A stretch of 64,000 bases of DNA from contig NZ_CP063815.1 in the NCBI RefSeq assembly GCF_015277895.1, positions 2,418,001 to 2,482,000 on the forward strand, given 5' to 3'. The position numbers were made by a program, and so were the translations under genes. Position 1 is the first letter of the stretch. Every line of letters starts with the position of its first letter. The notes under the pieces are model-generated. The model saw only the letters and a program-made list of their open reading frames with translations, made no database searches and had not been told where the DNA came from. The DNA is from Microbacterium abyssi (GTDB lineage Bacteria > Actinomycetota > Actinomycetes > Actinomycetales > Microbacteriaceae). Positions 6,307-62,482 of the stretch are shown piece by piece.

Positions 6307-7884
6307 TCACTCCCACTCGATGGTCCCCGGGGGCTTGGAGGTCACATCGAGCACGACGCGGTTGACGTCGCGCACGCCGTTGGTGATGCGGTTGGAGATC
6401 TTCGAGAGCACGTCGTACGGCAGGCGGGTCCAGTCGGCCGTCATGGCATCTTCACTGGACACCGGGCGCAGCACGATGGGGTGGCCGTAGGTGCGGCCGT
6501 CGCCCTGCACGCCCACCGAGCGGACGTCGGCGAGCAGCACGACGGGGCACTGCCAGATCTCGCTGTCGAGACCTGCCTTGGTCAGCTCCTCGCGGGCGAT
6601 GGCATCGGCCTCACGCAGAATCTCGAGGCGGTCAGCGGTGACCTCACCCACGATGCGGATGCCGAGGCCGGGGCCCGGAAACGGCTGCCGGCCGACGATG
6701 GCCTCCGGCAGGCCCAGCTCGCGGCCGATCGCGCGGACCTCGTCCTTGAACAGGGTGCGCAGCGGCTCGATGAGCTCGAAGTCGAGGTCTTCCGGCAGAC
6801 CGCCGACGTTGTGGTGCGACTTGATGTTCGCGGTTCCCGTGCCGCCGCCCGACTCGACGACGTCGGGGTAGAGCGTGCCCTGCACGAGGAACTTGATCGG
6901 CTCGCCCTCGGCCGCAGCCTCTGCGACGAGGTCGCGCTGCACCTGCTCGAACGCGCGGATGAACTCGCGGCCGATGATCTTGCGCTTCTGCTCGGGGTCG
7001 CTGACGCCCTTGAGATGCCCGAGGAACGTCTCACGTGCGTCCACGGTGATCAGACGCACGCCGGTCGAGGCGACGTAGTCGTTCTCGACCTGCTCGCGTT
7101 CGCCCTTGCGGAGGAGCCCGTGGTCGACGAACACGGCGGTGAGCTGGTCGCCGATCGCCTTGTGCACCAGCGCGGTCGAGACGGCGGAGTCGACGCCGCC
7201 GGAGAGCGCTGAGATGACGCGGGCGGAGCCGACCTGCTCGCGGATGCGCGCGACCTGCTCCTCGATGACGTTGCCGCTGTTCCAGTCGGAGGCGAGGCCT
7301 GCGGCCCTGTGCAGGAAGTTCTCGAGCACCTCCTGGCCGTGATCGGAGTGCTTGACCTCGGGGTGCCACTGCACGCCGTAGAAGCACTTCTCGTCGCTGC
7401 CGAAGGCCGCCACGGGGGTGTCGGGGGTGGATGCCAGGACGTCGAAGCCCTCGGGCGCGCGGGAGACCTGGTCGCCGTGGCTCATCCACACGTTCTGCGT
7501 GTTCGGCTGACCGCCGAGCAGCACGCCGCCGTCGTTCGCGATGACGGCATCCGTGGCGCCGTACTCGCGCAGACCGGTGTTGGCGACCTCGCCGCCGAGG
7601 GCGCGCGCCATGACTTGGAAGCCGTAGCAGATGCCGAGCGTCGGGACGCCGAGATCGAAGATCGCGCCGTCGAGAGAGGGTGCGCCCTCCTCGTAGACCG
7701 ACGACGGACCGCCGGAGAGGATGAGGGCGACCGGGTTCTTCTCGGCGATCTCCGATGCGCTGGCCGTATGCGGCACGATCTCGCTGTAGACACCGGCCTC
7801 GCGGACGCGGCGTGCGATGAGCTGCGCGTACTGGGCGCCGAAGTCGACGACGAGAACGGGGCGCTGTGCGGTGTCGGCGCTCAT
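6307..7884 (-). CDS. guaA: GMP synthase (glutamine-hydrolysing)
   Basis: A 525-residue enzyme that converts XMP, ATP and glutamine to GMP, the last step of guanylate synthesis. The N-terminal class-I amidotransferase has its nucleophile in GICYGFQ (Cys 86) and the His-Glu pair in QWHPEV (174-176). The synthetase domain has the pyrophosphate loop SGGVDS at 228-233. The C-terminal dimerisation domain ends in the invariant [10 protein letters not shown]. Length and motifs are complete. The start ATG 7884 overlaps the stop of the upstream DUF3817 gene by 4 bases (ATGA), so the two genes are translationally coupled, an arrangement common in this family. guaB and guaB3 lie 7-10 kb away on the same strand. 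Confidence 0.98.
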
Positions 7885-8405
7885 CGCGCTGCCTCCTGTG
7901 TCTGGGGTTCTGCAGCCGTCGCGGCTTCACGGGATGCGAGATACGCCTTGACCTCGCGGGAGACCCTGACCTCCATGATGAAGGAGAGGGCGGGGATGAC
8001 GCCGCCGAGTGCGAGCATGATGAAGCGGGCGAACGGCCAGCGCATCAGGCTCCACAGGCGGAAGATCGCGAACAGATAGACGACGTAGAACCAGCCGTGC
8101 GCGACGAGGATCAGCAGCGAGAGGTTGATGCCACCCGCCGTCTCGCCCGTGGAGATGTCTTCGCACCCCATGCCGCCCGGCACGAACAGCGAGTACCACT
8201 GGCATCCGTCCTGCATGATCACCGGAGCGAACCAGAGGAGTCCGCGGTCGCCGCCGGCGAACAGCTCGAGATGGATCGGCGTGTACTTCAGGATCATCTC
8301 TGCCAGCAGCAGGAGCAGCATGACACCGGTGACGATCGAGGCGATCTGATAGAACTTCAGCGCCCCGCGGATCTTCGGGAACGAGGCGGCTTTCGGTTCG
8401 GGCAT
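7881..8405 (-). CDS. DUF3817 domain-containing membrane protein
   Basis: A 174-residue membrane protein of uncharacterised family DUF3817 (YdzA-like). Four hydrophobic segments are visible: [60 protein letters not shown] and a weaker one near [10 protein letters not shown]. Family hallmarks are HGWFYVVY and the C-terminal [11 protein letters not shown]. Reading upstream is open to 8474, but the ATG at 8405 gives the family N-terminus ([19 protein letters not shown]). It is 4-base coupled to guaA, an association seen widely in actinobacteria, but no function has been established. Confidence 0.88.
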
Positions 8406-8503
8406 GTAGTCAAGTCTACCCGCGGGCACAGCGCCTCCCGCCGCGCTCTGATCGATCAGGAATCGAGAAGACACGGCATTCGGACGCGCGTACCGTCGCT
8501 GAC

Positions 8504-25957: not shown

Positions 25958-27913
25958 ATGGGCGAGTACGAAGTCGTGCTCGCGCTGGACTTGGGGATCA
26001 GTCGCATCATCGCGGCGTCTGCGGGTCTCGCGCAGAGCGAAGATGTCGAAACCGACTCCTACGTGCTGGGGCACAGGGGCGGCAGCACCGCCGTGCTCGC
26101 GTTCGTCGCAGATGACGGAGAGATCCTGTTCGGCGACGTGGCGGAGCAGCGCGGATTCATCCAGCCGGAGAACCTCTTGCGTGCGTTCACCGCCGAGATC
26201 GGGGACGAGATCCCCCTGGTGGCCGGCAGGAGCGCCATACCCGCCGCGGAGCTGACCGCACAGCTCGCCTCGTGGGCCGCCGCGCTCGCCGCACAGCCCC
26301 ACGAGCAGCGCCCGGCGATCGCGATCGCGCATCCGGCCGCGTGGACCTCGCATCGGATCGACGCGCTCCGCGCTGCACTGAGCGGTGCCGGGTTCGAGGA
26401 CGTCCGGTTCATGACCGCGGCTGAGGCCGCCGTCCGCCAACACGACTCGATGCTCCGCGATGCCGGGGCACCGCCACTGCCGGCGAACGCCGTCGTGGCG
26501 GTCTACGACCTGGGCGGCGAGTCCTTCGAAGCGACCGTCCTGCGCAAGGAGGCCGACGCGCAGTTCCGCATCCTCGGCGAGCCGATCGCGATCGTCGATG
26601 GTGCGGGGGCGCTGTTCGACGACCTGCTGATGGAGCACGCGCTCAGGACATCCGGCGCCGACGCGGCACCCGCGGTGCCGGATGCCGGCGATCGCGTCGC
26701 ATTCGCCCGCTTGCGCCGCGCATGCGTCGCGGCGAAGGAATCTCTCTCGTTCGATGCGGATGCCACGATCCCCGTGACCCTGCCGGGGCGCAGCGCCAGC
26801 GTGCGCATCACGCGCTCGGAGCTCGAGGCGATGATCGATCCCGCTCTGGAACGCACCCTGGATGCCGTCGAGCGCGCGCTCGACGGCGCGAAGCTGAGCC
26901 AGGACCAGCTGGACCACGTGCTCCTCCTCGGCGGGTCCTCGCACATCCCTCTGGTCGCGCAGCGGCTCTCCGAACGCTTCGATCGCCCCATCGTCACCGC
27001 ACCGGATGCCGCGGCGGCGCTGGGTGCGGCCCGAGCCGCCCTGCTCGAGCATCAGGAGTCCGCAGCGCTCGCCCTCCTGCCCGCCTCGGATGCCGAGATC
27101 GTGACGGCCGCCGCATCGACGCAGACCGATGGATCGCCGCGTCACACCCGCAAGCGGCGCCTGATCCCGGTGTTCGCCAGGGCCTCGGTGCGCTCGGCGT
27201 CTCCGGCTATCGTGACCATCGCCGCCGTGCTGGCCGCCGTCGGCGTCGCGACCACGACTGCGGGTGCGGCCATCCTCCGGGATGTCGCCGCCGACGCGCC
27301 GGCCGTCGCGAACGCGGCGCCGGAAGCCGTGACCGACGTGACCGACGTGACCGCGGAGGATCCCTTCGCTGCACTGTTCTCCGAGACCGGGACGCTCACT
27401 CCCCCTGAACGGGCCGCCCCGCAGGCTCCCGTGCCCGCGCCGGCGCCCATCGTCGTGAAGGACGCCCTCGCTCCTGGTCCGCGCAGCGCCGTCCGCGACA
27501 CGCTCTCCGCGTCGAAGGTGCCGCGGACGACCGCTCCCAAGAGCCGAACGCAGCGTGGCCCCGTGGTGGAGAACGCGGCGACGCCGATCTCCGCCCCGAA
27601 ACCGCCGAGATCCACGCCGACACCCCGCCCGCAGCCGTCGCCGGAACCCTCGTCGCAGCCGGTGCCCGATCCCGGGCCTGCGGATCCGGCTCCGACCACG
27701 CCACCCGCAGATCCGACACCGACCACGCCACCCGCCGACCCGACACCGACCACGCCACCCGCTGACCCGACACCGACCACGCCACCCGCCGATCCACCGG
27801 CGGATCCGGTGCCCGCCGACCCCACTCCGACAGTCCCCCCGCCCGCCGACCCGGCCCCGTCGCCTCCTCCCGAGGAGCCCGTGCCTCTCCCCCCTTCAGC
27901 AGAACCGATCTAG
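25958..27913 (+). CDS. Membrane-anchored Hsp70-like protein with proline-rich exterior tail
   Basis: A 651-residue protein. The first ~390 residues form an actin/Hsp70 ATPase: phosphate-1 loop LALDLGISRIIAAS, phosphate-2 loop VAVYDLGGESFEATVL and adenosine motif LLLGGSSHIPLVAQRL. There is no Hsp70 peptide-binding domain. Instead a basic stretch (HTRKRRL) leads into one transmembrane helix (about 414-439), then a ~200-residue Pro/Ala/Thr-rich tail with a four-fold repeat of TTPPADPTP. The ATPase should be cytoplasmic and the tail outside. ATG 25958 follows GGAAAGGGA closely. It heads the plus-strand operon of the iniBAC-like locus, 21 bases before the regulator gene. The client is unknown. Confidence 0.9.
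   Translation: MGEYEVVLALDLGISRIIAASAGLAQSEDVETDSYVLGHRGGSTAVLAFVADDGEILFGDVAEQRGFIQPENLLRAFTAEIGDEIPLVAGRSAIPAAELTAQLASWAAALAAQPHEQRPAIAIAHPAAWTSHRIDALRAALSGAGFEDVRFMTAAEAAVRQHDSMLRDAGAPPLPANAVVAVYDLGGESFEATVLRKEADAQFRILGEPIAIVDGAGALFDDLLMEHALRTSGADAAPAVPDAGDRVAFARLRRACVAAKESLSFDADATIPVTLPGRSASVRITRSELEAMIDPALERTLDAVERALDGAKLSQDQLDHVLLLGGSSHIPLVAQRLSERFDRPIVTAPDAAAALGAARAALLEHQESAALALLPASDAEIVTAAASTQTDGSPRHTRKRRLIPVFARASVRSASPAIVTIAAVLAAVGVATTTAGAAILRDVAADAPAVANAAPEAVTDVTDVTAEDPFAALFSETGTLTPPERAAPQAPVPAPAPIVVKDALAPGPRSAVRDTLSASKVPRTTAPKSRTQRGPVVENAATPISAPKPPRSTPTPRPQPSPEPSSQPVPDPGPADPAPTTPPADPTPTTPPADPTPTTPPADPTPTTPPADPPADPVPADPTPTVPPPADPAPSPPPEEPVPLPPSAEPI
27692..27801 (+). repeat. 27-bp in-frame tandem repeat in the Hsp70-like gene
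   Basis: The unit gaccacgccacccgc plus a 12-base remainder starts at 27694, 27721, 27748 and 27775, encoding TTPPADPTP four times. Repeat number is likely variable between strains. Confidence 0.85.
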
Positions 27914-27934
27914 AGAGAAGACGAGCTGATCGCC

Positions 27935-30535
27935 ATGACTGTTGTTTCGATGCGGCCGGATCACACGAAGAGGACCGGTCCCGCCTTCCTCTGGGACCGG
28001 CAGTTGCGAGCCGCCATCGAGACCATCGGCGCATCGCCCGGGTCCCCTCCCCGGGCGATGCTCATCGGAAACGCGGGCTCGGGGAAGTCGGCGTCACTGC
28101 GGCACCTGCAGAGCGTGCTCCTCGACCAGCATGCGGAGGTGGTGCTCATGCACTCCCCCGTTGCCGCCTCGATCGACCTGCCTCCCGCGGACACGGTGCT
28201 CATCATCGACGATGCGCACCTGCTGGATGAGGAGCAGCTCGCGCAGGTGATGGCGCGCGCGGCGGATCCGTCCGCGGCGCTCATCGTCGCCGCCCGTCCG
28301 TGGCCGTCGCCGGAGGCGCTGCGCGCAATCGCCCGGATGCTGGAGCACGCGTTCCCCGCGATCGTCCTCGGTCACGTCGGCCGGTCCGACGTGCTTCCCC
28401 ACCTCGACGCGCACGGCGTCGTGATGCGGGACTCCTGCGTGCAGCACATCCTCGACGTCACCGGAGGCGTCACCTGGCTCGTCGCCGAGGCTCTCGCGCG
28501 GCACGACGAGCTCGACTGCGCCGATGACGACGCCCACGACGAACTCCACCGCGCCCTCCAGGAGACGGTGCTGCACCGTCTCGACACCGTGAGCCCGGAT
28601 CATCACGATGCCGTCGAGGCGATGTGCGTGAAGTCGGCACGGCGTACGACGTCGGATGAGGCGGCCGACGACGCGGTGCTGTGCGGGTACGCCGAGGGGC
28701 TCCTGCTGCGCAGCGGTCGCCCCGTTCCGCTCGTGTTGTCGGCCGTCAGCGCATCGCTCCCGATCCGCCGCCTCGCCGAGCTGACCGGTACGCTCGCCGC
28801 CGCGCAGAGCGCCGGCGACGCGGATGATCGCGACTTCCGTGCGCTGGCGGAGGAGATCGGGACGGATGCCGTCGCCGACGCTCTCGTGAAGCAGGGCGAT
28901 CGGATGCTGGATGCCGACCCCGCGCGGGCAGAGGAGGCCTACCGGGAGGCGCTCCTGTGCGGTGCCGACGCATCCGTGCTCGCCGCACGGCGCGCGCGGG
29001 CGGCGTGGGCGCGTGGGGATCTGGACACCGCGATCGCGATCGCCGATGACCCTGCCTCCGGGACACCGACAGCGGACGGCGACCTGCTCACGGATGTGTC
29101 CGCCGGCGTCTGGGCCGCTCGGGGAATGATGGCGCAGGCAGGCGCCGTGTACCGCGCCCGTCCGCCTGTCGGCGACGAGTCCGCCGCTCTCGCATCGATC
29201 GCCGCGTTCGGCGTCGGATCCACGGCCGTGACCGAACGGCGCGCCGGCGGAGCGGCGCCGTCGACCCTGAGCGTGTCGATGGATCTGCTGCGCCGCGGTC
29301 TCGACGCCTCGCTCGCGGGAGGGAGCCCGGAGGTGGTGCTGGCCGATCTCGTCCGCGCCGCCGAGATGTACACGAGCTCGCGCGCTTCCAGCGCCGTTCC
29401 GGAGCTGCCCGCCGTCATCGCCGCCGTCATCGCGCTGAACCTCGGTGCCACGGCCACGGCGCGCACCGTCATCGACGACGCGATACACGGTGAGCATGGC
29501 GGACCGTGGGCGGCCCCGCGGCTGCTGCTCTGGCGCGCCTGGGTCGCCGTGCAGTGCGCCCGTCCCGCCGAGGCGCGCGCGGATCTGGCGCGCGCCCACG
29601 GACTGGCGCCCGACATGCCCGCGCGCGACGCCCTGCTTGCGAAGGCGGTGCGCGTCGCGATCGCACGGCGGTACGAGGACGCCTCGGGAGCGGACGAGGC
29701 GTGGCGTCAGGCACGCGGCGTCGTCCTGCGCGCGGAGATCGACCTGTACCTGCTGCATCCGCTGTCCGAACTCATCAGCGCCGCGACCCGCGCCGGCGAC
29801 GCCGGGCGGATCAAGGCGCACTTCGCGCGTGCGATCGAGATCACCGCTCAGCTCGGTGATCCGCCGCTGTGGATCGCGCACCTGCGCTGGGCCGGCATCC
29901 AGCAGGGCATCCTGCTCGGCAATCCCGCGCACCTGACCCCGCATGCCAAGGCGCTCGTCGCGGCATCTGCCGAGAGCCATGTCGCCGCCGTCATGGCGAA
30001 GGGCGGCCGGGTATGGACCTCCGTTCTCGGCGGCGCCGTCGACCCCGCAGCGGTCGAGGCCGCGGCGGAGGGACTCGCATCGGTCGGCCTGAAGTGGGAC
30101 GGCGCACGCCTGGCCGGTCATGGGGCCGGTCGCACCGACGACCGCAAGGTCGCCGCCCGGCTGCTCGCCTGCGCGCGCGAGCTGCACCCGACCGACAGCA
30201 CGCGCAAGACCGCGGATGCCGGAGACGCCGCAGACCCGGCACGGACGCGCACCGCACCGGAGGAGCTGCTGAGCGACCGTGAGATCGAGGTCGCCCGCCT
30301 GGTGCTGCAGGGGAAGACGTACGCCGAGATCGGCGAGACGATCTTCATCTCGCCCCGTACCGCCGAGCACCACATCGCGCATATCCGCAACCGCCTGGGT
30401 GCGACGTCCCGTTCCGAGGTGCTCGCGAAGCTGCGGCAGCTCATCGGCGACGACCACACCGTCACGTCCATCCACCCCGTCCGATCGGCCCCGGCAGACG
30501 AATCCCCCTCCCCGCAGCTGCGGGTATCGGGGTGA
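27935..30535 (+). CDS. Large ATPase-LuxR transcription regulator, IniR-like
   Basis: An 866-residue regulator. An N-terminal P-loop ATPase has Walker A GNAGSGKS (45-52) and Walker B VLIIDDAH (88-95). A long alpha-helical, TPR-like middle follows (for example DPARAEEAYREALLCGADAS). A LuxR-type helix-turn-helix lies at the C-terminus, ~777-840 (LSDREIEVARLVLQGKTYAE, then ISPRTAEHHIAHIRNRLG). Proteins of this architecture switch on promoters after ligand and ATP binding. Size and placement next to iniB/iniA/iniC-like genes match mycobacterial IniR (Rv0339c). It therefore probably controls the neighbouring operons, which is inference. ATG 27935 lies 21 bases after the Hsp70-like stop. Confidence 0.9.
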   Translation: MTVVSMRPDHTKRTGPAFLWDRQLRAAIETIGASPGSPPRAMLIGNAGSGKSASLRHLQSVLLDQHAEVVLMHSPVAASIDLPPADTVLIIDDAHLLDEEQLAQVMARAADPSAALIVAARPWPSPEALRAIARMLEHAFPAIVLGHVGRSDVLPHLDAHGVVMRDSCVQHILDVTGGVTWLVAEALARHDELDCADDDAHDELHRALQETVLHRLDTVSPDHHDAVEAMCVKSARRTTSDEAADDAVLCGYAEGLLLRSGRPVPLVLSAVSASLPIRRLAELTGTLAAAQSAGDADDRDFRALAEEIGTDAVADALVKQGDRMLDADPARAEEAYREALLCGADASVLAARRARAAWARGDLDTAIAIADDPASGTPTADGDLLTDVSAGVWAARGMMAQAGAVYRARPPVGDESAALASIAAFGVGSTAVTERRAGGAAPSTLSVSMDLLRRGLDASLAGGSPEVVLADLVRAAEMYTSSRASSAVPELPAVIAAVIALNLGATATARTVIDDAIHGEHGGPWAAPRLLLWRAWVAVQCARPAEARADLARAHGLAPDMPARDALLAKAVRVAIARRYEDASGADEAWRQARGVVLRAEIDLYLLHPLSELISAATRAGDAGRIKAHFARAIEITAQLGDPPLWIAHLRWAGIQQGILLGNPAHLTPHAKALVAASAESHVAAVMAKGGRVWTSVLGGAVDPAAVEAAAEGLASVGLKWDGARLAGHGAGRTDDRKVAARLLACARELHPTDSTRKTADAGDAADPARTRTAPEELLSDREIEVARLVLQGKTYAEIGETIFISPRTAEHHIAHIRNRLGATSRSEVLAKLRQLIGDDHTVTSIHPVRSAPADESPSPQLRVSG

Positions 30536-30551
30536 TCCCCGATGCCCGGTC
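30526..30551. promoter_or_regulatory. Inverted repeat ATCGGGG-N4-CCCCGAT upstream of the IniB-type gene
   Basis: A perfect 7-4-7 palindrome overlaps the regulator stop codon and is followed by gcccgg. A similar word, TCCCCGATGctgCCCGG, lies upstream of the other IniB-like gene (37121-37139 on minus). It is a candidate binding site for the LuxR-type regulator, inferred from position and shared sequence only. Confidence 0.4.
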
Positions 30552-30669
30552 GGGTACGAGCCGCATACGATCCGAGGCAGGATCTGGGGATCTGCGGGCC
30601 CCCGCAGGAGCGGGTGCACGACGAAGACGCAACTGAGCTTCGAACGATATCCAAGAGGGGGACATCTCC

Positions 30670-31410
30670 ATGACGTCACCGGTCGAGACGATCGCAGATG
30701 CGCTGATCGCCTTCATCTTGAGCCTGCTCCGTGATCCGGATGCCGCCGCAGGGTTCGCCGCCGATCCGGATACGGCCCTCGAAGACAACAACCTGCGCAG
30801 CGCGTGCATGGCCGATGTCGCCGCCGTCCGCCCCGTCATCGTCGACAGGCCGGACGTCGTCACGCGCACGCAGGTGGATCCGCCGCCTCCGCCGAGCACC
30901 CCGACCGAGGTGACGAACGAGATCATGCGGATGGTGCAGCAGTTCACGACGATCGACGCGCGCTCGACGATGGTCGACCAGTCGGTGAACCAGAACATCT
31001 GGACGGCCGGCGGCGATGTCACCCAGCTGTTCGATCAGGAGGCGATCATCGCATCCGGTGACGGCTCGGTGGCCGCCGGCGACGACGGCACGATCGAGAA
31101 CGGCGACACCGACGTGACGGTCGGCGATGTGTCGGTCGGCAACGACACCTACGACGGCAGCTTCAACGGCACCGACGTCGATGTCACGACTCCCTCCCCC
31201 GCCGCACCGGCCGATCCGGCGGAGGCGGCGACGCCGGTCCCGGCTGCACCGGTCACGACGACGGAGCCCGCTGCTCCGGTCGACGTTCCGGAGCCCGCCG
31301 ACGTCCTCGACACCGACATGGCCGCGGCGGACGACTCGTACGACGCCGACGCGGCGAGCGCCGCCGTCGCCGACGAGGCGCTCGCCGAAGAGCCGGTCGA
31401 GGAGGAGTGA
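30670..31410 (+). CDS. IniB N-terminal-domain protein
   Basis: A 246-residue acidic protein. The first ~60 residues (MTSPVETIADALIAFILSLL, RDPDAAAGFAADPDTAL, LRSACMADVAAVRP) match the N-terminal domain named after mycobacterial IniB. A polyproline spacer (PPPPPSTPTE) follows, then a module with DQSVNQNIWTAGGDV, ASGDGSVAAGDDG and TVGDVSVGNDTYDGSFNGTD. The last third is Ala/Pro/Glu/Asp-rich. The middle module recurs in the 424-residue repeat protein at 35783-37057. There is no signal peptide and no transmembrane segment. ATG 30670 has GAGGGGG 8-9 bases upstream. IniB function is unknown; in mycobacteria the iniBAC genes respond to cell-wall damage. Confidence 0.85.
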   Translation: MTSPVETIADALIAFILSLLRDPDAAAGFAADPDTALEDNNLRSACMADVAAVRPVIVDRPDVVTRTQVDPPPPPSTPTEVTNEIMRMVQQFTTIDARSTMVDQSVNQNIWTAGGDVTQLFDQEAIIASGDGSVAAGDDGTIENGDTDVTVGDVSVGNDTYDGSFNGTDVDVTTPSPAAPADPAEAATPVPAAPVTTTEPAAPVDVPEPADVLDTDMAAADDSYDADAASAAVADEALAEEPVEEE

Positions 31411-31420
31411 CATCAGCGCC

Positions 31421-32011
31421 GTGGCCCGACAGGATCCCGAGCCGGCTCGGGAAGCACCGAGCCGGCCGTCGACGTCCAGCGACAACGGCGCACCGGTCCT
31501 GGTGAAGGCGACACCGCCGTTCGAAGTGCGTCTGAGCCAGTTCTTCTGGATCATCAGCTTCGCCGTCGGGGCGTTCGCCGTGGTCTTCCTGTTCATCATC
31601 CGCGAGGAGCTGCTGCCCCTCATCGAGGAAGTGGCCCGCGCCGTGACGGACGGCCGCAGCGACGCGACCTATACGAGCGCCGCCGACATCCTCTTCTGGA
31701 TCGTCTTCGGCACGCTCGTCACCGTGCTGCTGCTGCAGATCACGCTGATGGTGTCGTTCACGAGCCGCCGTCCGAATGTGCGCTGGTGGCAGTTCGGCAC
31801 GCTGGCACTGCTGGCGCTGCTCGTGGTGCTGTCACCCGAGTGGGTGGCTCTGGGCACCCAGGGCTCGCAATTTCAGACGATGATCGCGGCGGAGGCCGCG
31901 CTCGTCGTGCTCGCTCTGCTGTGCAGCATCCTGCCCCGTGCGATGAGCTGGTCGGCCCGCCGAGTCGATGTCCGGCGCAGCGCCGCCGGTCCGCCCCGCG
32001 CCGACATCTGA
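31421..32011 (+). CDS. Four-helix membrane protein of the ini-like locus
   Basis: A 196-residue unrecognised membrane protein. After a 40-residue hydrophilic, Pro/Ser-rich leader there are four hydrophobic segments: FFWIISFAVGAFAVVFLFII, ILFWIVFGTLVTVLLLQITL, FGTLALLALLVVLSPEWVAL and MIAAEAALVVLALLCSILP, then a basic tail. The start is probably GTG 31421, with GGAGGAG at the end of the preceding gene 13 bases upstream, a long spacing. No in-frame ATG exists before the first helix. It is 10 bases behind the IniB-type gene, so it is the fourth gene of the operon. Its last 180 bases are overlapped in antisense by the dynamin-like gene. Confidence 0.72.
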   Translation: MARQDPEPAREAPSRPSTSSDNGAPVLVKATPPFEVRLSQFFWIISFAVGAFAVVFLFIIREELLPLIEEVARAVTDGRSDATYTSAADILFWIVFGTLVTVLLLQITLMVSFTSRRPNVRWWQFGTLALLALLVVLSPEWVALGTQGSQFQTMIAAEAALVVLALLCSILPRAMSWSARRVDVRRSAAGPPRADI

Positions 32012-33484
32012 CACGGCCGCTGCGGCCTCCGACGCGATCTGCTCGAGGGTTCGGATCACGACACGGCAGGCGTCGACTGCAGCACGACCGGCGAGCGGTG
32101 ATTCGCTCAGCCGGCGCCAGCGCGCGATCCCCTCGCGTGCCGTCGCGTGGACGATGACGTCGTCCGCCTGGGGCGACAGGCCGAGCCGGGTGTGCGCGTC
32201 GGTGCCCTCGGCACCGACGACGCGCTCGGCCTCGACGGCATCCTCATCGGTCAGCGGCAGCCCCTTCGACCTGGCATCCGCGAGCAGTGAGAGTTCGCGC
32301 AGCGTGTGCGCCGCCAGCGTGAAGCGCTCGACGCCCGCGCGGATGGCGTCCGTGCCCTGCCGAGGGAACTCCCGCGTGAGACGCTCGAGCTGGAGCACGA
32401 TCCCGCGCGCCTTCAGCGTCGCCGCCCTGGGCTGGAACTGCCGTGCGATGAAGTCCTGGATCTCCAGCAGACCGCTCTGCTGCACGAGCTCCTCGGAGAG
32501 CTCCGAGGAACTCGCTGCGCCTCCGCGGATGATCGCGGTCGCCATGCGCACCCCGAAGATGCCGAACCGGGCGAGCAGGTCACGGCGTACGACGACGCTG
32601 AGGCCCGTGGCATCCGTCTCGCGCACGAACCGATCGGCCGAGACGAGCAGCCGCTCGCGTTCATCGCGATCGAGGCCGGCCAGCTCACGGAACGCGATGT
32701 ACTCGCTCTCGCGCAGCGTCCGCGCGCCCTCGGCCAGGAGCCCGGTGACCGGGATCACGCCGAGGGTGAGCGAGGCGAGCTCCGGATCGCGCTGGTAGCG
32801 GTGCGCCACGCGTCGTGCCGAGAGCAGCGAGTCGATGCGTCCCGACCCGACCTCGTCGGCGCGGGAGAGCACGCTGACCGCGCAGACCGTCTGCGCGGCC
32901 CCAGCTGCGTTGTCACGGAAAGCCTCGAGGAACTTCACGTCCGAGCCGTGCAGGTGACGCAGCAGGTACACGACCGCGTCTGCGGCGGACGGCGCGTCGT
33001 CCGGGGTGAGGAACCGGAGTGCACGCGTCGAGGTGTCGGCGGAGAGCGAGGCGATGCCCGGCGTGTCGATCAGGATCACCGATTTCAGCGCCTGCAGCGG
33101 CCAGCCGACGTCGAGCCATTCCACCTCCTCCGCGGAGAGACCGCCGAGATCGAGCACGAGCAGTCCCCGCTCCCGCCGGATCGGCATCCTGCGCGGTTCG
33201 CCCACGCGGGGGTGCAGGGTGATGGTCGGGGTCGGTGAGTACCGGTACCAGGTCACCACCCGCGTGCATTCACCGGTGTCGGTGGGCGCGATGCGCTCAC
33301 CGAGCATGGCGTTCAGCAGCGTCGACTTGCCCGCCTTCACCATGCCCGCCAGCGCGAGGCGCAGCGGTTCGTGCAGACGTTCCTCGAGCTGGTCGATGAT
33401 CTCGCGCACCGTCTCGTCGTCCGCGTAGACGTCCTTGGCCGTGGCGAGCAGCTCGTCGGTGATGCCGACGATGGATGCCGTCAT
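31832..33484 (-). CDS. Dynamin-like GTPase, IniC-like
   Basis: A 550-residue large GTPase. G1 is AGMVKAGKSTLLNAM (47-54), G3 is DTPGIAS (140-143) and G4 is degenerate, SRAD (207-210) in place of TKxD. A long helical stalk follows. Mycobacterial IniC is about 490 residues. Here the recognisable part also ends near residue 490 (base ~32015), and a further ~60 residues of low-quality sequence are read antisense through the end of the membrane-protein gene. This suggests a lost stop codon. ATG 33484 overlaps the IniA-like stop by 4 bases, so the two dynamins are made together and probably form heteromers. Expected role: membrane remodelling or repair. Confidence 0.87.
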   Translation of the reverse strand: MTASIVGITDELLATAKDVYADDETVREIIDQLEERLHEPLRLALAGMVKAGKSTLLNAMLGERIAPTDTGECTRVVTWYRYSPTPTITLHPRVGEPRRMPIRRERGLLVLDLGGLSAEEVEWLDVGWPLQALKSVILIDTPGIASLSADTSTRALRFLTPDDAPSAADAVVYLLRHLHGSDVKFLEAFRDNAAGAAQTVCAVSVLSRADEVGSGRIDSLLSARRVAHRYQRDPELASLTLGVIPVTGLLAEGARTLRESEYIAFRELAGLDRDERERLLVSADRFVRETDATGLSVVVRRDLLARFGIFGVRMATAIIRGGAASSSELSEELVQQSGLLEIQDFIARQFQPRAATLKARGIVLQLERLTREFPRQGTDAIRAGVERFTLAAHTLRELSLLADARSKGLPLTDEDAVEAERVVGAEGTDAHTRLGLSPQADDVIVHATAREGIARWRRLSESPLAGRAAVDACRVVIRTLEQIASEAAAAVSDVGAGRTGGAAPDIDSAGRPAHRTGQDAAQQSEHDERGLRRDHRLKLRALGAQSHPLG

Positions 33485-35385
33485 GAGACCGTCCGTCCCG
33501 ACGGACCCGGTGTCAGCGCGCCGACGGGGCTGGACGCGCGCTCCACGGCCTGGGCGGGCACGGGTTCCTCCAACGCCGGGATGCGGCTTCTGAGCTCCTC
33601 GAGCTGAGCGATGCGCTTCTGCAGCGCATTCACCCTGGCGTCGCGCTTCGCGGTGTAGGTGGTCGCCGCCTGCTTCGCGGTGGTGAGCGCCTCGGACAGC
33701 GAGCGATGCAGTTCCTCTGCCATCGAGCCGAAGTGGTCCCGTGCGGTCCGCTGCACCAGCCGCAGGCGATCCTTCAGCTGCTTGCCGACCTGGAACGTGA
33801 CCTCATCGATGTGCCGGCGCACGATCAGCTTCGCCTCCTGCTGGCGCCTGGCGAGCCGCGAGTGCATGTCCTCGCGGTAGGCACGCCTGCCCACGAGCAC
33901 TCCCGCGAGCAGCGACAGCGGGTTGATCAGGGTCATGCCGATGAGCCCTGTCACGAGCCCCACCATGAGCACCCCGCCGTAGGAGCCGCGAACGCCGATG
34001 TAGATCTTCTCGCCGGCACTGAGCTGGCCGGAGTCGAGCCCTGCGATCTCCTCGACCGGGTCCAGGACCCCCTGCGTGTCGTGTACGTCGATCGCGGGAA
34101 GAGCCGTCTCCCCCTTGCTGAACAGGTCGGCGACCTCCTCCGACAGCCAGGTCGAACGCTCGTCGGTCCACACGAAGGTCTCGGCCACCGCCGCGGCGAC
34201 CCGCTGATCGAGCCACTCCGTGATCTGATCCCAGATCGGTCCGGGGTCGCCCTCATCGATGGATTTCTCCGCCTCTCGCATCACGCGTCGCAGGCGATCG
34301 CGCACATCGTGCTCCATGTCGGCGACGAGATCGGCGATGCCGTCGGTGAGCGTCACCTGCCAGCGCGCGGAGCGCCCGCGGAACTCATCGGCGCTCGCCT
34401 TGGCCGCCTCGAGCTCGGCGATCATGCGCGGGGTGTCCTCGGGATTCTGCAGCGCGTTCAGCTCGGTGCGCATCGACATCGTCAGCTGATCGATCACCGA
34501 GAGCAGATCGTGCACGGCGCCGCGCTCGTGGATCACCTCGGCCCGTCCGAGCACCTCGCGTCGCAGATGCGCGACGAGGGCAGGGAACCCGGAGTCGTCG
34601 TTCAGCGTCCGATCCTGCAGTTCCGCGGCGAGAAGCCGGAGATCGCTCGAGACCGCGAAGATCGGCACGTCACCGGCATCCAGCAGGTGCCGCCGGTCGA
34701 TCTCCTCGACTTCGCGCCATTCCGGGTAGAGGTCGGTCTTGGCGAGTACCGCGGCGACATTCGGCGAGATGCGCATGGCGTGGCGCAGGAACTGCACCTC
34801 CGGCTCGGTGTACTCCTGCGAGGCATCCGAGACCATCAGCACGGCGTGTGCGGAGGACAGCGCCGCCAGCGTCGTGAGCGCGTTCGTCGACTCGAACCCG
34901 CCGACGCCCGGCGAGTCCACGAGCTGCAGCCCGCCTTTGAGGATCTCTCTCGGCAGCAGGACCTCGGCCGACAGGATGCCGCGCTCGTTGCCCGGATTTC
35001 CGCGCTCCGAGACGAAGTCGGCGAGATCCTCGAGAGGGATCTCACGGCGGTCGATCCCGGGATTCCGGGGATCGGTTCCGACGCCCTTCGACCTCTCGAG
35101 GATCCACGCCGAGGGTTCCGGCGCGTAGCCGACCATCGTCGGGACACTGGTGGCGATGTCATCGTCGACCGGACATGCCGGCGCGTTCACGAGGGCGTTG
35201 ATGAGCTTGCTCTTGCCCTGTTTGAACTCTCCGACGACGATGACGCGGATTCCCGGATCGAGCAGCCGCCTACGCGTCTGATCCAGACGTTCGGCTAGAT
35301 CCGCCCTTCCGGCGGATGCCGCGAGACTGCCCACCTCGCGGACGGTTTCTGCGACCGTATCCCCAGCGGTTCGCATCTCCGGCAC
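33481..35385 (-). CDS. Dynamin-like GTPase, IniA-like
   Basis: A 634-residue bacterial dynamin-like protein, the same size as mycobacterial IniA (~640). The GTPase core has G1 GEFKQGKSKLINAL (52-59), the switch ATSVPT, G3 LVDSPGVGGFES (157-160) and G4 AKTDLYPEW (215-218). A helical stalk follows. Residues ~463-498 hold two hydrophobic stretches (GGVLMVGLVTGLIGMTLINP, then LLAGVLVGRRAY), the expected membrane-inserting paddle. The C-terminus is coiled coil then Pro-rich. GTG 35385 is chosen because GGGGGGA lies 5 bases upstream. ATG 35376 is an alternative. IniA is membrane-active and linked to isoniazid/ethambutol stress in mycobacteria; a similar envelope-stress role is inferred. Confidence 0.9.
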   Translation of the reverse strand: MPEMRTAGDTVAETVREVGSLAASAGRADLAERLDQTRRRLLDPGIRVIVVGEFKQGKSKLINALVNAPACPVDDDIATSVPTMVGYAPEPSAWILERSKGVGTDPRNPGIDRREIPLEDLADFVSERGNPGNERGILSAEVLLPREILKGGLQLVDSPGVGGFESTNALTTLAALSSAHAVLMVSDASQEYTEPEVQFLRHAMRISPNVAAVLAKTDLYPEWREVEEIDRRHLLDAGDVPIFAVSSDLRLLAAELQDRTLNDDSGFPALVAHLRREVLGRAEVIHERGAVHDLLSVIDQLTMSMRTELNALQNPEDTPRMIAELEAAKASADEFRGRSARWQVTLTDGIADLVADMEHDVRDRLRRVMREAEKSIDEGDPGPIWDQITEWLDQRVAAAVAETFVWTDERSTWLSEEVADLFSKGETALPAIDVHDTQGVLDPVEEIAGLDSGQLSAGEKIYIGVRGSYGGVLMVGLVTGLIGMTLINPLSLLAGVLVGRRAYREDMHSRLARRQQEAKLIVRRHIDEVTFQVGKQLKDRLRLVQRTARDHFGSMAEELHRSLSEALTTAKQAATTYTAKRDARVNALQKRIAQLEELRSRIPALEEPVPAQAVERASSPVGALTPGPSGRTVS

Positions 35386-35415
35386 GTGTTCCCCCCAGAT
35401 GTTCTTCGAGCTGTT

Positions 35416-35433
35416 GGGGTGGTGCACCACCCC
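35416..35433. promoter_or_regulatory. Perfect 18-bp palindrome upstream of the IniA-like gene
   Basis: ggggtggtg/caccacccc has no spacer and lies 31 bases upstream of the GTG start, in the 66-base gap after the 80-residue gene. A zero-spacer palindrome cannot form a normal terminator loop of full length, so an operator is more likely. Confidence 0.4.
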
Positions 35434-35451
35434 TGCTCCCCAGTTTCGGGA

Positions 35452-35694
35452 TCAGACGAGTAGGTCTGGCCCCAGTGCCCCTCCGTCGATGTCGGAAGCA
35501 GCGGCCGGATCATCTCCCCAGATGAGTTCCGGATCCACTTCCCAATCGGCGGAATTCACGTTCTCGATCTCCGCAGTGAAGATGTTCGCCCCCGTCGGGT
35601 CGGCATCGGCTGCGGCATCCGGCCAGAGGGTCTCCTCGAAAGCGTCGAAACCCATCGGCTGCTGTGCCGATTCGCCCTGCGCGTCGTCGGACAT
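35452..35694 (-). CDS. Small acidic protein of the ini-like operon, function unknown
   Basis: I do not recognise this 80-residue protein. It is strongly acidic, with no transmembrane segment, signal peptide or Cys. Visible features are SDDAQGESAQQPMGFDAFEE, TLWPDAAADADP, IFTAEIENVNSADWEVDPEL and IWGDDPAAASDIDGG, with three Trp residues in acidic surroundings. ATG 35694 has a weak GAAGG 9 bases upstream. It is placed between the repeat protein and the IniA-like GTPase with gaps of 88 and 66 bases on the same strand, so it is very likely part of the operon. It could be an adaptor or a regulator of the GTPases. Confidence 0.65.
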   Translation of the reverse strand: MSDDAQGESAQQPMGFDAFEETLWPDAAADADPTGANIFTAEIENVNSADWEVDPELIWGDDPAAASDIDGGALGPDLLV

Positions 35695-35782
35695 GTCTCA
35701 CGACCTTCGGATCGGATTGTCTGCAGTGTACTGCTCTGCCCGGCCGCCTTCCAGAGGCAGCCGGGCAGACCAGGCTGATGCC

Positions 35783-37057
35783 TCAGAAGGCGACGTCGTT
35801 CATATCTCCCGTGGGGCTGCCGACGTTGATGTCGTCGACCGCGACGTCGACGTTCAGCGACTCGTCGGTCATCGAGCTGTCCTGGAACGAGTCGTTCACG
35901 GACCACGTGTCGGAGTTGTCCGTCATCGAGTTGTCCTGGAACGAGTCGTTCACCGACCAGTTGTCCGAGAAGTCGGTCATCGAGTTGTCGGAGTTGTCCG
36001 AGTTGTCGGAGTTGTCGGTCGTCGAGTTGTCCGAGTTGTCGGTCGTCGAGTTGTCCTGGAACGAGTCGTTGATCGACCAGTTGTCCGAGAAGTCCTCGTT
36101 GAACGAGTCGGTGTAGGTCTCGTTGCCGATCGCGACATCGCCCACCGTGATGTTGGTGCTGATGTTCGTCAGCGCGCCGTCGCCACCTGCCGCGACGGAG
36201 CCGTCACCGGATGCCGTGATGCTGCTGTTGGCGATGAACTGATTGACGTCGCCACCGGTGTTGCCGCCACCTGCCGGGACGCCTCCGTACTCCAGACCGG
36301 CAAGGCCCGCAGAGCCTGCCGCACCGGCACCGCTGGCTGCGGTGGAGATGTTCTGGTTCACCGACTGGTCGTTCAGCGTCGCGCGAGCGTCGATCGTGAG
36401 GCTGCCGCCACCGGCTCCGGCCATGCCGGCTCCGCTGAGGTTCAGGTCGTTGAACCCGGCGTTGAACTGACGTGTGCCGACGCTGATCGAGTGATCGTTG
36501 AGCGTCGTGTTGCCCGAGTCGTGAACGGAGTTGTTCTGGAACGAGTCGTTGATCGAGTTGTCGGAGTTGTCCGAGTTGTCGGAGTTGTCCTGGAACGAGT
36601 CGTTGACCTGGAACGAGTCGCTGATCGAGTTGTCCGAGTTGTCCGAGTTGTCGGAGTTGTCCGAGTTGTCCGAGTTGTCGGAGTTGTCGCTGTTGTCGGA
36701 GTTGTCCGAGTTGTCGGAGTTGTCGCTGTTGTCCGAGTTGTCGTCCGTCGAGTTGTCCGAGTTGTCGGAGTTGTCGTCGGTCGAGTTGTCGGAGTTGTCC
36801 GAGTTGTCGCTGTTGTCCGAGTTGTCCGAGTTGTCGGAGTTGTCGCTGTTGTCCGAGTTGTCCGAGTTGTCGGAGTTGTCCGAGTTGTCGGAGTTGTCCG
36901 AGTTGTCCGAGTTGTCGGAACTGTCCGTCCAGGAGTTGTCGTCGGTCGAGTTGTCGTCCGCCGAGTTGTCCGAGTTGTCCGTGTTGCCGTTGCCGACATC
37001 CTCCACACCCAGATTCCACTGAGCGCCGAGCAAGTTGACGTTGTCCTGCACAGCCAT
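35783..37057 (-). CDS. Asp-Asn-Ser repeat protein, IniB-like
   Basis: A 424-residue, very low-complexity acidic protein. After MAVQDNVNLLGAQWNLGVED come ~120 residues built almost wholly of the triplet Asp-Asn-Ser, with occasional TDDNS breaks. Next is a Gly/Ala-rich middle (GAGMAGAGGGSL, then AASGAGAAGSAGLAGL) containing LNDQSVNQNIS, ASGDGSVAAGGDG and ITVGDVAIGNETYTDSFN. A second repeat zone with ~18-residue units (WSVNDSFQDNSMTD) follows, ending MNDVAF. The SVNQN-to-SFN module is shared with the IniB-N-domain protein at 30670-31410. There is no signal peptide. ATG 37057 has AAAGGGG 8 bases upstream. It occupies the iniB position before the IniA/IniC-like genes. Confidence 0.85.
   Translation of the reverse strand: MAVQDNVNLLGAQWNLGVEDVGNGNTDNSDNSADDNSTDDNSWTDSSDNSDNSDNSDNSDNSDNSDNSDNSDNSDNSDNSDNSDNSDNSDNSTDDNSDNSDNSTDDNSDNSDNSDNSDNSDNSDNSDNSDNSDNSDNSDNSDNSISDSFQVNDSFQDNSDNSDNSDNSINDSFQNNSVHDSGNTTLNDHSISVGTRQFNAGFNDLNLSGAGMAGAGGGSLTIDARATLNDQSVNQNISTAASGAGAAGSAGLAGLEYGGVPAGGGNTGGDVNQFIANSSITASGDGSVAAGGDGALTNISTNITVGDVAIGNETYTDSFNEDFSDNWSINDSFQDNSTTDNSDNSTTDNSDNSDNSDNSMTDFSDNWSVNDSFQDNSMTDNSDTWSVNDSFQDSSMTDESLNVDVAVDDINVGSPTGDMNDVAF
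35855..36105 (-). repeat. Second in-frame repeat zone of the Asp-Asn-Ser protein
   Basis: Units of about 54 bases encode variants of WSVNDSFQDNSMTD separated by Asn-Ser-Asp steps. At least five NDSFQ cores are seen. Confidence 0.75.
36530..36985 (-). repeat. Nine-base tandem repeat array encoding (Asp-Asn-Ser)n
   Basis: On plus the unit reads gttgtccga or gttgtcgga, so the Ser codon varies between TCC and TCG while GAC and AAC stay fixed. Around 40 units fill the tract, interrupted by a few ttgtcgtcSgtcga variants. Such arrays are prone to slippage in steps of nine bases, which keep the frame. Confidence 0.9.
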
Positions 37058-37277
37058 GATGAGACCCCTTTATCCGTGTGAGTGCCGAGTGGCGCTTGGT
37101 AAGAGTCTGGAACCGGCGTGCCCGGGCAGCATCGGGGAGCATCCCGGGGCTTGTCGGGGAATGGTCGGGGGATCATCGGGGGCGTCGTGGGGGCCAGTAG
37201 GGGGAGCCCCGGGAAACCACGAAGGTCCGGATGCCGAAGCATCCGGACCTTCAGTGCTGGTCGCTGCGCGTCTCGCG
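37058..37277 (-). promoter_or_regulatory. Upstream region of the Asp-Asn-Ser gene with helically phased G/C runs
   Basis: On plus, runs of four or five G begin at 37134, 37146, 37156, 37167, 37178, 37189 and 37200, i.e. every 10-12 bases, one per DNA turn. They lie 77-147 bases upstream of the minus-strand ATG at 37057. No clear -35/-10 pair was identified. Such phasing suggests a cooperative protein array or bent/stacked DNA controlling the operon. Confidence 0.6.
37221..37252 (-). terminator. groES terminator
   Basis: A perfect 14-bp stem gaaggtccggatgc / gcatccggaccttc with a cgaa tetraloop, 25 bases beyond the groES stop on minus. On that strand it is followed after a few bases by TTTCCC. 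Confidence 0.85.
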
Positions 37278-37574
37278 TCAGCGAACGACGACGGCGAGGA
37301 CGTCGCGAGCCGAGAGCACCAGGTACTCGTCGGCGCCGAACTTCACCTCGGTGCCGCCGTACTTGCTGTAGAGAACGCGGTCGCCGACGGCGACGTCGAG
37401 CGGAACGCGGTTGCCGTTGTCATCGATGCGGCCAGGGCCGACAGCCACGACCTCGCCCTCCTGGGGCTTCTCCTTGGCGGTGTCGGGGATGACCAGGCCA
37501 CTTGCGGTGGTCTGCTCGGCCTCGACCTGCTGGATGACGATGCGGTCCTCGAGCGGCTTGATGGAAACCGACAC
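37278..37574 (-). CDS. groES: Co-chaperonin GroES
   Basis: A 98-residue Hsp10 that caps the GroEL chamber during protein folding. The sequence is complete and canonical: [12 protein letters not shown] at the start, the mobile loop [29 protein letters not shown] and the end strand [14 protein letters not shown]. The start is GTG 37574, six bases after an AGAGG ribosome site. groEL is not adjacent, as upstream lies a divergent methyltransferase gene and downstream the ini-like locus, so the chaperonin gene must be elsewhere. Expression should be heat-inducible through HrcA, given two CIRCE elements upstream. Confidence 0.97.
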
Positions 37575-54866: not shown

Positions 54867-56201
54867 ATGGAGCAGTTCTTCGATGATGTGGATGATCGGC
54901 CTCGTGATGCCGCGTTCGTCATCGGGTCTGCTCTGGATGATCTGCAGTGCGCGGATATCGATCTGAATCGGTATGCGGCGCGGCGTGGGGCGCAGATCGC
55001 GGATGCTGTCGCTCTGGCGCGCCGGAACCCCGAGGTGTTCGTGCTGGAGGACGCACAGGATGCGGCTGATCAGGCTGAGCGTGCGGCGGTCTCCGATATC
55101 GCCCTGCGGCTGAAGCGGTCCGAGGAGGACGTGCAGGCTGAGCTCGCTGTCGTGCAGGCCGCGATGCGACGACTGCCCACCTTGTGGGGGCATGCGCGGG
55201 ACGGGTTCGTGTCGATGTATCTCGTGACGCGGACGGTGGGGGCGCTGGGCAGGGTGCGGGCTCCCGCGAATGCCACGGCGGAGCAGCAGGAGGCCGAGCG
55301 CGAGGCGGCGCGACGGATCGATGAGGCGACCTCGGAGTGGGCGTTGACCTGTTCCCCGGTCAACTTCCTGCGCCGCCTCAAGCGCCTGACCGACCGACTC
55401 GACCCCGAACCCGCGGAGATGCGCCATACCCGCGCGGTGGCCGACCGGCGGGTGTGCGTCGAGCATGTGGACGACGGGATGAGCTGGATCAATGCCTACA
55501 TCCCCACCACGGAGGCGCTCGCTGTCGACCGTCGCCTCGCCGCGACGGCGAAGCAGGTGAAGAAGAGTGACCCGTGCGAGACGCGCACGATCGCGCAGAT
55601 CCGCGCCGACCTGTACTCCGAGTGGCTGCGCGGAGTCGGCACCGACCGGGCCGCGCAGACGAAGATCTTCGTCACCATCCCCGTCCAACTCCTCGACGAC
55701 GCCAGCAGCGATGCTGTCGACCTTCCCGTCCCGGAGGCGGAGATCGTCGGGCACGGCCCGATCGACCCGCTCACCGCGAAGCAGCTGCTCCTCGACACCG
55801 GCGTCTTCCGCCGGGTGATCGTCGACCCGATCCGCAGCGTGGTCATCGACATGGACCGCCGCAGCCGCCACGCCACACAAGCCCAGCGCGACTGGCTCAT
55901 CCTGCAGCACGGCACCTGCGCGAGAGACGGCTGCACCCGACTCGCCCTCGACGCCGACATCGACCACAACACCCCCTGGGCACAAGGCGGCACAACCAAC
56001 CTCGAAGACCTCCGGCCCCTCTGCCCCAGACACCACGTCGACAGGCATCGAACCCGCGCCATCTACCGATCCCGCCCCGACGGGACCGTCGAAGTCACCA
56101 CCCCCACCGGGTTCCGCAGTGCGTCCCCGCCACCCGAGACTCGCGCCACCGAGCACATCGCCCCGGTCCCGACCGTCCGCGATCTCGTCGCGCCGTTCTA
56201 G
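54867..56201 (+). CDS. HNH endonuclease of the DUF222/13E12 repeat family
   Basis: A 444-residue protein. The N-terminal ~320 residues are the helical DUF222 region (ALDDLQCADIDLNRYAARRG; ALAVDRRLAATAKQVKK; TRTIAQIRADLYSEWL). The C-terminal HNH nuclease has CARDGCTRLALDADIDHNTP, WAQGGTTNLEDLRPLC and PRHHVDRH. Such genes occur in many copies in actinobacterial genomes (REP13E12 in M. tuberculosis) and behave like dispersed repeats; their targets are unknown. Here it separates the flagellar sigma factor from flagellin and ends 5 bases before the fliC promoter. It is not a flagellar component. Confidence 0.93.
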   Translation: MEQFFDDVDDRPRDAAFVIGSALDDLQCADIDLNRYAARRGAQIADAVALARRNPEVFVLEDAQDAADQAERAAVSDIALRLKRSEEDVQAELAVVQAAMRRLPTLWGHARDGFVSMYLVTRTVGALGRVRAPANATAEQQEAEREAARRIDEATSEWALTCSPVNFLRRLKRLTDRLDPEPAEMRHTRAVADRRVCVEHVDDGMSWINAYIPTTEALAVDRRLAATAKQVKKSDPCETRTIAQIRADLYSEWLRGVGTDRAAQTKIFVTIPVQLLDDASSDAVDLPVPEAEIVGHGPIDPLTAKQLLLDTGVFRRVIVDPIRSVVIDMDRRSRHATQAQRDWLILQHGTCARDGCTRLALDADIDHNTPWAQGGTTNLEDLRPLCPRHHVDRHRTRAIYRSRPDGTVEVTTPTGFRSASPPPETRATEHIAPVPTVRDLVAPF

Positions 56202-56205
56202 CAGC

Positions 56206-56232
56206 TAACGCCCGCTCCGGTTCCGCCGATAG
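56206..56232 (+). promoter_or_regulatory. Sigma-28-type promoter of fliC
   Basis: TAAC (56206-56209), 15 bases, GCCGATAG (56225-56232). It is identical in both boxes to the flgN and flgB promoters. The transcript leader to the flagellin ATG would be about 50 bases. Confidence 0.92.
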
Positions 56233-56289
56233 GTGTGTGTGAAGCCCACGGATGGGCTTCGGTACATCCCAATCACGGAGGAACACACC

Positions 56290-57126: not shown

Positions 57127-57136
57127 TTCGCTCGCA

Positions 57137-57175
57137 GGTTCCGGGTGGGCGGCCGATCGTCGCCCACCCGGAACC
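57137..57175 (+). terminator. Hairpin between fliC and fliD
   Basis: A perfect 15-bp stem ggttccgggtgggcg / cgcccacccggaacc with a 9-base loop. fliD has no sigma-28 box of its own in the remaining gap, so this probably works as a partial terminator, giving far more flagellin than cap mRNA. Confidence 0.8.
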
Positions 57176-57205
57176 AGCATCCGCACCTGATCCGGAAAGG
57201 CACAC

Positions 57206-58582: not shown

Positions 58583-58583
58583 T

Positions 58584-62468: not shown

Positions 62469-62482
62469 AAACGAAACATCCC

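Follow-up and report, generated by a model that had tools for sequence, protein, structure and literature searches.

The closest described systems are mycobacterial, and among them iniBAC has been studied as a tuberculosis drug-response operon. A chromatin immunoprecipitation peak of the regulator IniR lies before iniBAC in Mycobacterium tuberculosis, where IniR is sufficient for iniBAC induction, and in Mycobacterium smegmatis a dnaK-like gene adjoins iniR, with iniB* situated between iniR and iniBAC (Boot et al. 2017, PMC5760070). IniA of M. smegmatis is reported to carry out GTP-dependent membrane fission in vitro (PMC6715688), and deletion of iniAC in M. tuberculosis to lower vesicle output, both genes being required (review PMC11077946, citing Gupta 2023). 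We analyzed a 64,000-nt stretch of Microbacterium abyssi (the window; its parent genome is a single 3.27-Mb contig), in which eight genes probably make up a full-form IniR/IniBAC envelope-stress system, consisting of a sensing pair and two IniR-driven target operons.

The plus-strand operon encodes, in order, an ini-type Hsp70 (25958-27913), an IniR-like STAND ATPase with a LuxR-type helix-turn-helix (HTH; 27935-30535), an IniB-type protein with an IniB N-terminal domain that is placed like the mycobacterial iniB* (30670-31410), and a four-helix membrane protein with a GTG start (TM4; 31421-32011). The minus-strand operon runs from an Asp-Asn-Ser repeat protein with an IniB-type core (35783-37057) through an 80-residue protein (P80; 35452-35694) to an IniA-type (33481-35430) and an IniC-type (31832-33484) dynamin-like GTPase. 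All eight genes, as delimited by a first-pass annotation of the window, have intact open reading frames; that annotation missed the 180-bp overlap between the converging operons (31832-32011) and the promoter element that the two have in common. Its reading of the locus as an iniBAC-type system is upheld, with several component identities corrected.

The same promoter element stands before both target operons. Counting both strands, CCCCGATGC occurs twice in the 64 kb, at 30537 before the gene of the protein with the IniB N-terminal domain and at 37137 on the minus strand before the Asp-Asn-Ser gene. The former lies in a predicted IniR-type operator and -10, the promoter of the iniB*-TM4 operon (30526-30571, plus strand), which reads ATCGGGG-TGAT-CCCCGAT with TACGAT following 29 nt after CCCCGAT begins; the latter lies in what is predicted to be the promoter, with an array of operators, that serves the iniB-P80-iniA-iniC operon (37103-37181, minus strand), where five CCCCG[AG] half-sites are spaced 10 to 12 bp apart (CCCCGA at -124, -113, -102, and -80 and CCCCGG at -92 from the ATG). 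When copies of the element are aligned, a GGGG arm is seen on the upstream side and a -10-like TA(C/G)NNT follows at a regular spacing (29 nt wherever it was counted), and exact CCCCGATG is found in 55 of 183 IniB upstream regions, versus 3 in one shuffle. A position weight matrix (PWM) covering 56 positions and trained without the window ranks the two promoters first and second of the 64 kb (30.1 and 26.4 bits, with the third site at 13.0), and they are still first and second (17.2 and 16.0 bits) under a second PWM built from 16 nonredundant sites from outside Microbacterium. When all loci are considered, including those used for training, 117 of the 181 PWM matches above 11 bits fall within 200 bp before IniB-type genes on the same strand, and none of the 181 precedes an Hsp70 gene. 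Mycobacterium-like loci have the layout of the element before IniB in 13 of 18 cases (CCCCGTT in 11 and CCCCGATT in 2). The PWM scan covered the window and the collected loci, and the figure for the whole M. abyssi genome rests on the pattern GGGG-N3-6-CCCCGATG, of which there are four occurrences, the window promoter among them; the other three stretches score at most 10.0. Half-site spacings cluster near 11, 22-24, 33-34, 42-44, 55-58, and 65-67 bp, in a tally dominated by related sequences and made without a shuffle control. The top matches of an automatic dyad search were iniR coding sequence and mycobacterial copies, and only the CCCCGATG signal was kept after inspection. Because IniR binds and induces iniBAC in M. 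tuberculosis, it would be the natural reader of the CCCCGAT element, and the occurrence of one element on both operons predicts, from sequence, a single IniR regulon.

The genes of the window also keep company elsewhere. An IniA profile scan of genome contigs yielded named loci (the best 80 of at least 532 confirmed relatives), of which the 54 that extend 8 kb or more to either side of iniA form the counted set; these are the nearest relatives, clustered in Microbacterium, Arthrobacter, and Pseudarthrobacter (Agromyces, Georgenia, Cellulomonas, Tessaracoccus, Phycicoccus, and Pseudonocardia are also represented), and are not independent. Hsp70, IniR, an IniB-type protein, and IniC are present in all 54, TM4 in 50, and P80 in 6; Hsp70 lies directly upstream of IniR on the same strand in 44, and gaps measure -3 to 45 bp in 58 of 74 tandem pairs. 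Scored as present in this count are the fragments of one Pseudarthrobacter locus (L124, strain Fe7), whose Hsp70 is in four and IniR in two pieces, pointing to decay or sequencing errors. The 26 loci dropped for having less than 8 kb beside iniA show Hsp70 in 10 cases and IniR in 15.

Among 58 related genomes, the ini-type Hsp70 (scoring 468 bits or more, the next match being DnaK at 199 bits) occurs in exactly the 10 that encode IniA (E values no worse than 1.9e-134) and is missing from the other 48, one of which (G050) has a weak IniA-like match only; TM4 is found in 9 of these 10 and nowhere else among the 58. Within a set of 396 genomes of the phylum, all 16 with a long IniR match encode IniA, which is present in 19 in total. 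A chance neighborhood is excluded by the gene set conserved across loci and related genomes. The conservation anticipated for Microbacteriaceae by the first-pass annotation was found wherever IniA is found, and far beyond that family, but it is patchy in the genus, where 8 of 35 genomes have the system. Since 35 Microbacterium loci (duplicates included) keep at least one of the four genes flanking the system in the window, the system occupies one chromosomal place, and its patchiness looks like loss rather than repeated insertion.

In a class-wide sample of 394 genomes from 137 genera, IniA is present at an E value of 1e-60 in 49 genomes, which belong to 17 genera. From its 54 IniA places, 41 rows (40 loci) were taken, 9 were already in the set, and 4 were left out. 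An IniA-IniC pair is present in 37 of the 40 loci, accompanied by the ini-type Hsp70 in 30 and by a strong IniR in 27 of the 37, and the other three hold a lone IniA paralogue without Hsp70 or IniR; one pair without Hsp70 (L178) belongs to a locus cut at the contig end. All 18 mycobacterium-like loci examined contain at least one ini-type Hsp70, that of L064 being only weakly similar. The first-pass annotation was thus wrong to set the Hsp70 outside the described mycobacterial system, in which, as PMC5760070 reports, a dnaK-like gene adjoins iniR of M. smegmatis.

The ini-type Hsp70 of the window contains an Hsp70 ATPase domain (Pfam HSP70, E value of 1.9e-28), with the nucleotide-binding domain, assigned to the cytosol, at about residues 1-375, followed by a membrane helix at about residues 417-435 (hydropathy of 2.05, with a positive flank on its N-terminal side) and a Pro/Thr-rich tail. 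In an AlphaFold2 model, ten-residue blocks from 11 to 370 mostly have predicted local distance difference test (pLDDT) values of 74-97 and residues 387-546 fall below 50; the tail is predicted to be disordered. Tandem 27-bp repeats at 27683-27795 encode this tail. Once the duplicate contigs (L050, L054, L055, and L165) and matches shorter than 350 amino acids (aa) were dropped, our survey comprised 132 Hsp70 matches, 5 of them true DnaKs and 127 not, and in all 127 the DnaK substrate-binding domain scores 0, as judged by sequence only. A clear membrane helix (hydropathy above 1.6), with a tail that is usually Pro/Thr rich, is present in 110 of the 127; the remaining 17, some of them truncated, are under the threshold. 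In 88 of the 110, the flank is more positive before the helix than after it, which fits an outer tail, and the Pro/Thr tail should lie outside the membrane. Lys70 and Glu171 have roles in DnaK, Lys70 being the catalytic residue. The Lys70 column contains Lys in none of 123 rows (E in 77, a gap in 14, Q in 8, and others in fewer). In the second phosphate motif, 121 of the 123 rows retain the Asp, and the window Hsp70 has Ala at the Glu171 column. In a tree of 46 rows with some very long branches, ini Hsp70s and DnaKs fall on two sides with a value of 100 in the Shimodaira-Hasegawa-like approximate likelihood ratio test (SH-aLRT). With no DnaK-type substrate-binding domain detected and a Lys70 position that is never Lys, the remodeling chaperone suggested by the first-pass annotation is unlikely. 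Five DnaKs (L168, L170, L177, L178, and L186), whose genes lie near mycobacterium-like or related loci, were excluded by their substrate domain from being taken for ini Hsp70s. Certain mycobacterium-like loci (L061, L062, L166-L169, L171, L173, and L174) have two non-DnaK Hsp70 genes each, one with a Thr-rich tail beside iniR and a second with a Pro-rich tail further out.

The regulator matches the NCBIfam IniR profile NF038181 over positions 5-825 of 827 and Pfam GerE at an E value of 8.5e-13. Its assignment as IniR-like therefore stands over the full length, but at 333 bits the match is far under the equivalog cut-off of 750, and by sequence we regard the protein as an IniR-like homologue, not filed as an equivalog. 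IniR is likened in PMC5760070 to MalT, whose activity depends on a sugar.

The IniB-type proteins, two of which had been proposed, are not alike. The 30670-31410 protein has the IniB N-terminal domain (IniB_NTERM, NF038175; 56.4 bits, reaching the cut-off of 40), as do 12 of 12 aligned relatives (E value of 0.001). The Asp-Asn-Ser protein gave no match when searched with NF038175; it holds the IniB core (DQSVNQN...GGDVNQ...SGDGSVAAGGDG), a core profile ties it to IniB proteins of other loci, and we classify it from these features as IniB related in its core only. Its composition is 20% D, 19% N, and 19% S, with 48 DNS tripeptides (longest run, 15), and long Asp/Asn/Ser tails are frequent in the IniB proteins of related genera. 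The 80-residue protein, initially regarded as a new component, does not bear out that view: among 26 second IniB-like proteins, 8 are matched at their C-termini by its family profile (best E value of 5.3e-14), all 8 from Microbacterium-type loci, and among 26 first IniB-like proteins none is matched below an E value of 0.8. This comparison, drawn from a small set and low-complexity sequence, is moderate evidence, and the reading that fits P80 best is that of a second IniB paralogue reduced to a shrunken C-terminus. TM4, which is recognized by its family profile, has no Pfam match at an E value of 0.1 in the window protein and scattered weak ones among 18 relatives.

Both GTPases match Pfam Dynamin_N (E values of 1.3e-10 for the IniC-like and 6.9e-17 for the IniA-like protein), and the IniA-like protein matches the solved IniA of M. 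smegmatis (6j72) at an E value of 9.4e-130, the next chain reaching 1.5e-12. We built a quick maximum-likelihood tree of 77 actinobacterial rows, all of them IniA or IniC proteins and none an outside dynamin, in which the 40 IniA rows and 37 IniC rows separate completely (SH-aLRT of 100) and a mycobacterium-like row on the IniA side scores 1045 bits to 6j72. The first-pass annotation had named beforehand a placement outside the IniA/IniC clade as the outcome that would undo its reading; both window proteins lie inside their respective groups, and tree and gene order alike put the IniC-type protein with IniC partners, downstream of IniA. The loci of Phycicoccus, Tessaracoccus, and Propionibacteriaceae (L117, L152, and L095-L097) share the Microbacterium layout, and in the tree the IniA and IniC proteins of Phycicoccus are nested with those of Microbacterium, which could mean that the cluster was transferred as a whole. 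A single viral contig (L157) encodes a protein weakly related to IniA (31% identity).

These parts suggest how a system of this kind might work. The two sensing proteins, an Hsp70-type ATPase anchored in the membrane and IniR as a MalT-like activator, would come from one operon, and the targets would be the iniB*-TM4 and iniB-P80-iniA-iniC operons, each with an IniR-type promoter. Envelope damage could be read by the Hsp70 via its tail and/or by a small molecule bound to IniR; IniR would assemble on CCCCGAT half-sites spaced by roughly one turn of the helix and switch both operons on, and IniA and IniC would jointly act on the membrane in scission, vesicle release, or repair, with the IniB proteins as a scaffold and TM4 as a membrane anchor. 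We infer the role of every part in M. abyssi, including the regulation of IniR by Hsp70, for which the tight Hsp70-IniR tandem is suggestive. Several findings weigh against an IniR-centered envelope-stress system. Besides the regulator's score, so far below the equivalog cut-off, the PWM made without Microbacterium gives a third site (42715, minus strand) 14.4 bits, close to the 16.0 of the second promoter, and when the core is masked, the two promoters fall to ranks 160 and 153 of 127890. Six of the 37 IniA-IniC pairs in the class-wide sample (L190 and L196-L200) lack both Hsp70 and a strong IniR; L188 and L189 hold Hsp70 beside IniA-IniC with no detectable IniR; and in the distant loci L069, L070, L072, L074, and L075, Hsp70 stands at the IniB/IniA end and IniR on the other side. 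Finally, trehalose is the mycobacterial signal, and the signal in Microbacterium need not be the same. Five of the loci without Hsp70 (L196-L200) have, instead of IniR, a short LuxR-type regulator of 263-308 aa, suggestive of a sister system.

The placement of Hsp70 in L188, L189, and the distant loci argues against a role confined to IniR and for one with the dynamins. In the strict form of this alternative, the Hsp70 would act on the dynamins or IniB and not on IniR, as a membrane-bound ATP switch that recruits, loads, or dismantles the IniA/IniC assembly. L188, where Hsp70, a small protein, IniA, and IniC are consecutive on one strand, agrees with it (the small protein, at 7611-8435 of that locus, has an amphipathic-looking start and stands at the IniB position; it has no IniB profile match). 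Set against it are the direct Hsp70-IniR tandem, seen in 44 of the 54 named loci and also in mycobacterium-like ones, the lack of a substrate-binding domain and of Lys70, incompatible with an ordinary disassembly cycle, and the Hsp70 starts, where, unlike at those of effector genes, none of the 181 PWM matches above 11 bits places the promoter element; we hold the strict form to be somewhat unlikely. Control of IniR by Hsp70 is slightly more likely than a role with the dynamins, and both may hold. An extension of the IniR-centered reading, possible but doubtful, would make the ini Hsp70 an envelope sensor that gates a STAND activator in the manner of MalK and MalT and would make the tuberculosis iniBAC a reduced form of an older system; the Hsp70 ATPase domain may then have lost its substrate domain and catalytic lysine and gained a membrane tether and a wall-reaching tail, and the older ini system may need no mycolic-acid envelope.

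In one variant of the envelope-stress reading, which does not contradict it, the effectors would form a vesicle-release machine: envelope stress would make IniA/IniC shed membrane vesicles, and IniB would serve as coat or cargo. The lowered vesicle output of the iniAC deletion, with its requirement for both genes, and the GTP-dependent fission by IniA speak for this variant (PMC11077946 and PMC6715688, respectively), but the evidence on vesicles is mycobacterial only and a thick Gram-positive wall is in the way, so we consider it rather unlikely for M. abyssi. Dynamins together with a STAND ATPase could also mark an anti-phage or membrane-integrity defense island. STAND ATPases serve in defense, the system is present in only 8 of the 35 same-genus genomes, and the IniA-like protein matches LeoBC and LeoA in PADLOC at 52.5 bits each (no cut-off is given, and the scores are far below the IniA match). 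These matches may reflect the common dynamin family, however, and in Microbacterium the locus keeps a single chromosomal position next to housekeeping genes and is no part of a variable island; with the DNA-binding HTH of IniR, its dedicated promoter element, and a lone weak match on a viral contig, a defense island is improbable. Hardest of all to credit is that the two operons are unrelated neighbors: they do converge on different strands, but they have a promoter element in common, their company is conserved in 54 of 54 loci, and they are jointly present or absent in genomes.

Just beyond the Asp-Asn-Ser gene lies a GroES gene (37278-37574), recognized from its sequence without a profile. 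In most other Microbacterium loci that show GroES, it is on the Hsp70 side, indicating a local rearrangement at the window locus. One record titled Planococcus sp. (L088) contains a Microbacterium-type locus whose GroES is 97% identical to that of the window, probably through contamination or mislabeling. In the last 8 kb of the window (56001-64000), the GC skew is clearly negative (-0.05 to -0.13).

A full-text search, which reached few subscription papers and in which absence does not mean unpublished, found no literature on an Hsp70-IniR-dynamin cluster beyond the dnaK-like remark in PMC5760070. The Hsp70-iniR link, first reported there for M. smegmatis, is extended here; the new findings are how constant the Hsp70 is and how it is built, a promoter element common to both operons, the arrangement in two operons, the regular presence of TM4 in Micrococcales-type loci, and the interpretation given to the 80-residue protein. 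If the proposed system holds across actinobacteria without mycolic acids, the basic ini signal is not tied to mycolic-acid lipids alone, harmless strains of Microbacterium or Arthrobacter could serve to study how IniR receives the signal, and the means by which envelope damage is known to be sensed would come to include an Hsp70-type protein unlike a chaperone. With the promoter element, the regulon can be tested directly.

Compared with the mycobacterial iniR/iniB*/iniBAC system (Rv0339c-Rv0343 and relatives), the window has the same IniR-type activator, an IniB* and an IniB, an IniA-IniC pair, and the promoter layout GGGG-N-CCCCG[AT]T with a -10 that follows after about 28-29 nt; it differs in its two promoters, two converging operons, Asp/Asn/Ser-rich IniB proteins, TM4, and P80. 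To our knowledge, no mycolic-acid envelope is expected in Microbacterium. The unpublished Hsp70-IniR-IniB-IniA-IniC clusters of the Arthrobacter/Agromyces type (L106-L151) have the same parts and the same promoter element as the window, but these five genes share a strand and a uniform order, IniB is present only once, and TM4 converges from the far end. With DnaK and other Hsp70 chaperones, the ini Hsp70 has in common the fold of the ATPase domain and the phosphate motifs; unlike DnaK, it is without a substrate-binding domain and Lys70, has a membrane helix and a predicted outer tail, and forms a separate group in the tree. Escherichia coli MalT is a STAND activator with a LuxR-type HTH and phased half-sites, and its activity is controlled also by a membrane transporter, through the membrane-bound ATPase partner MalK. 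MalK is an ABC (ATP-binding cassette) ATPase, whereas, by analogy, the candidate partner of IniR in the window would be of the Hsp70 type.

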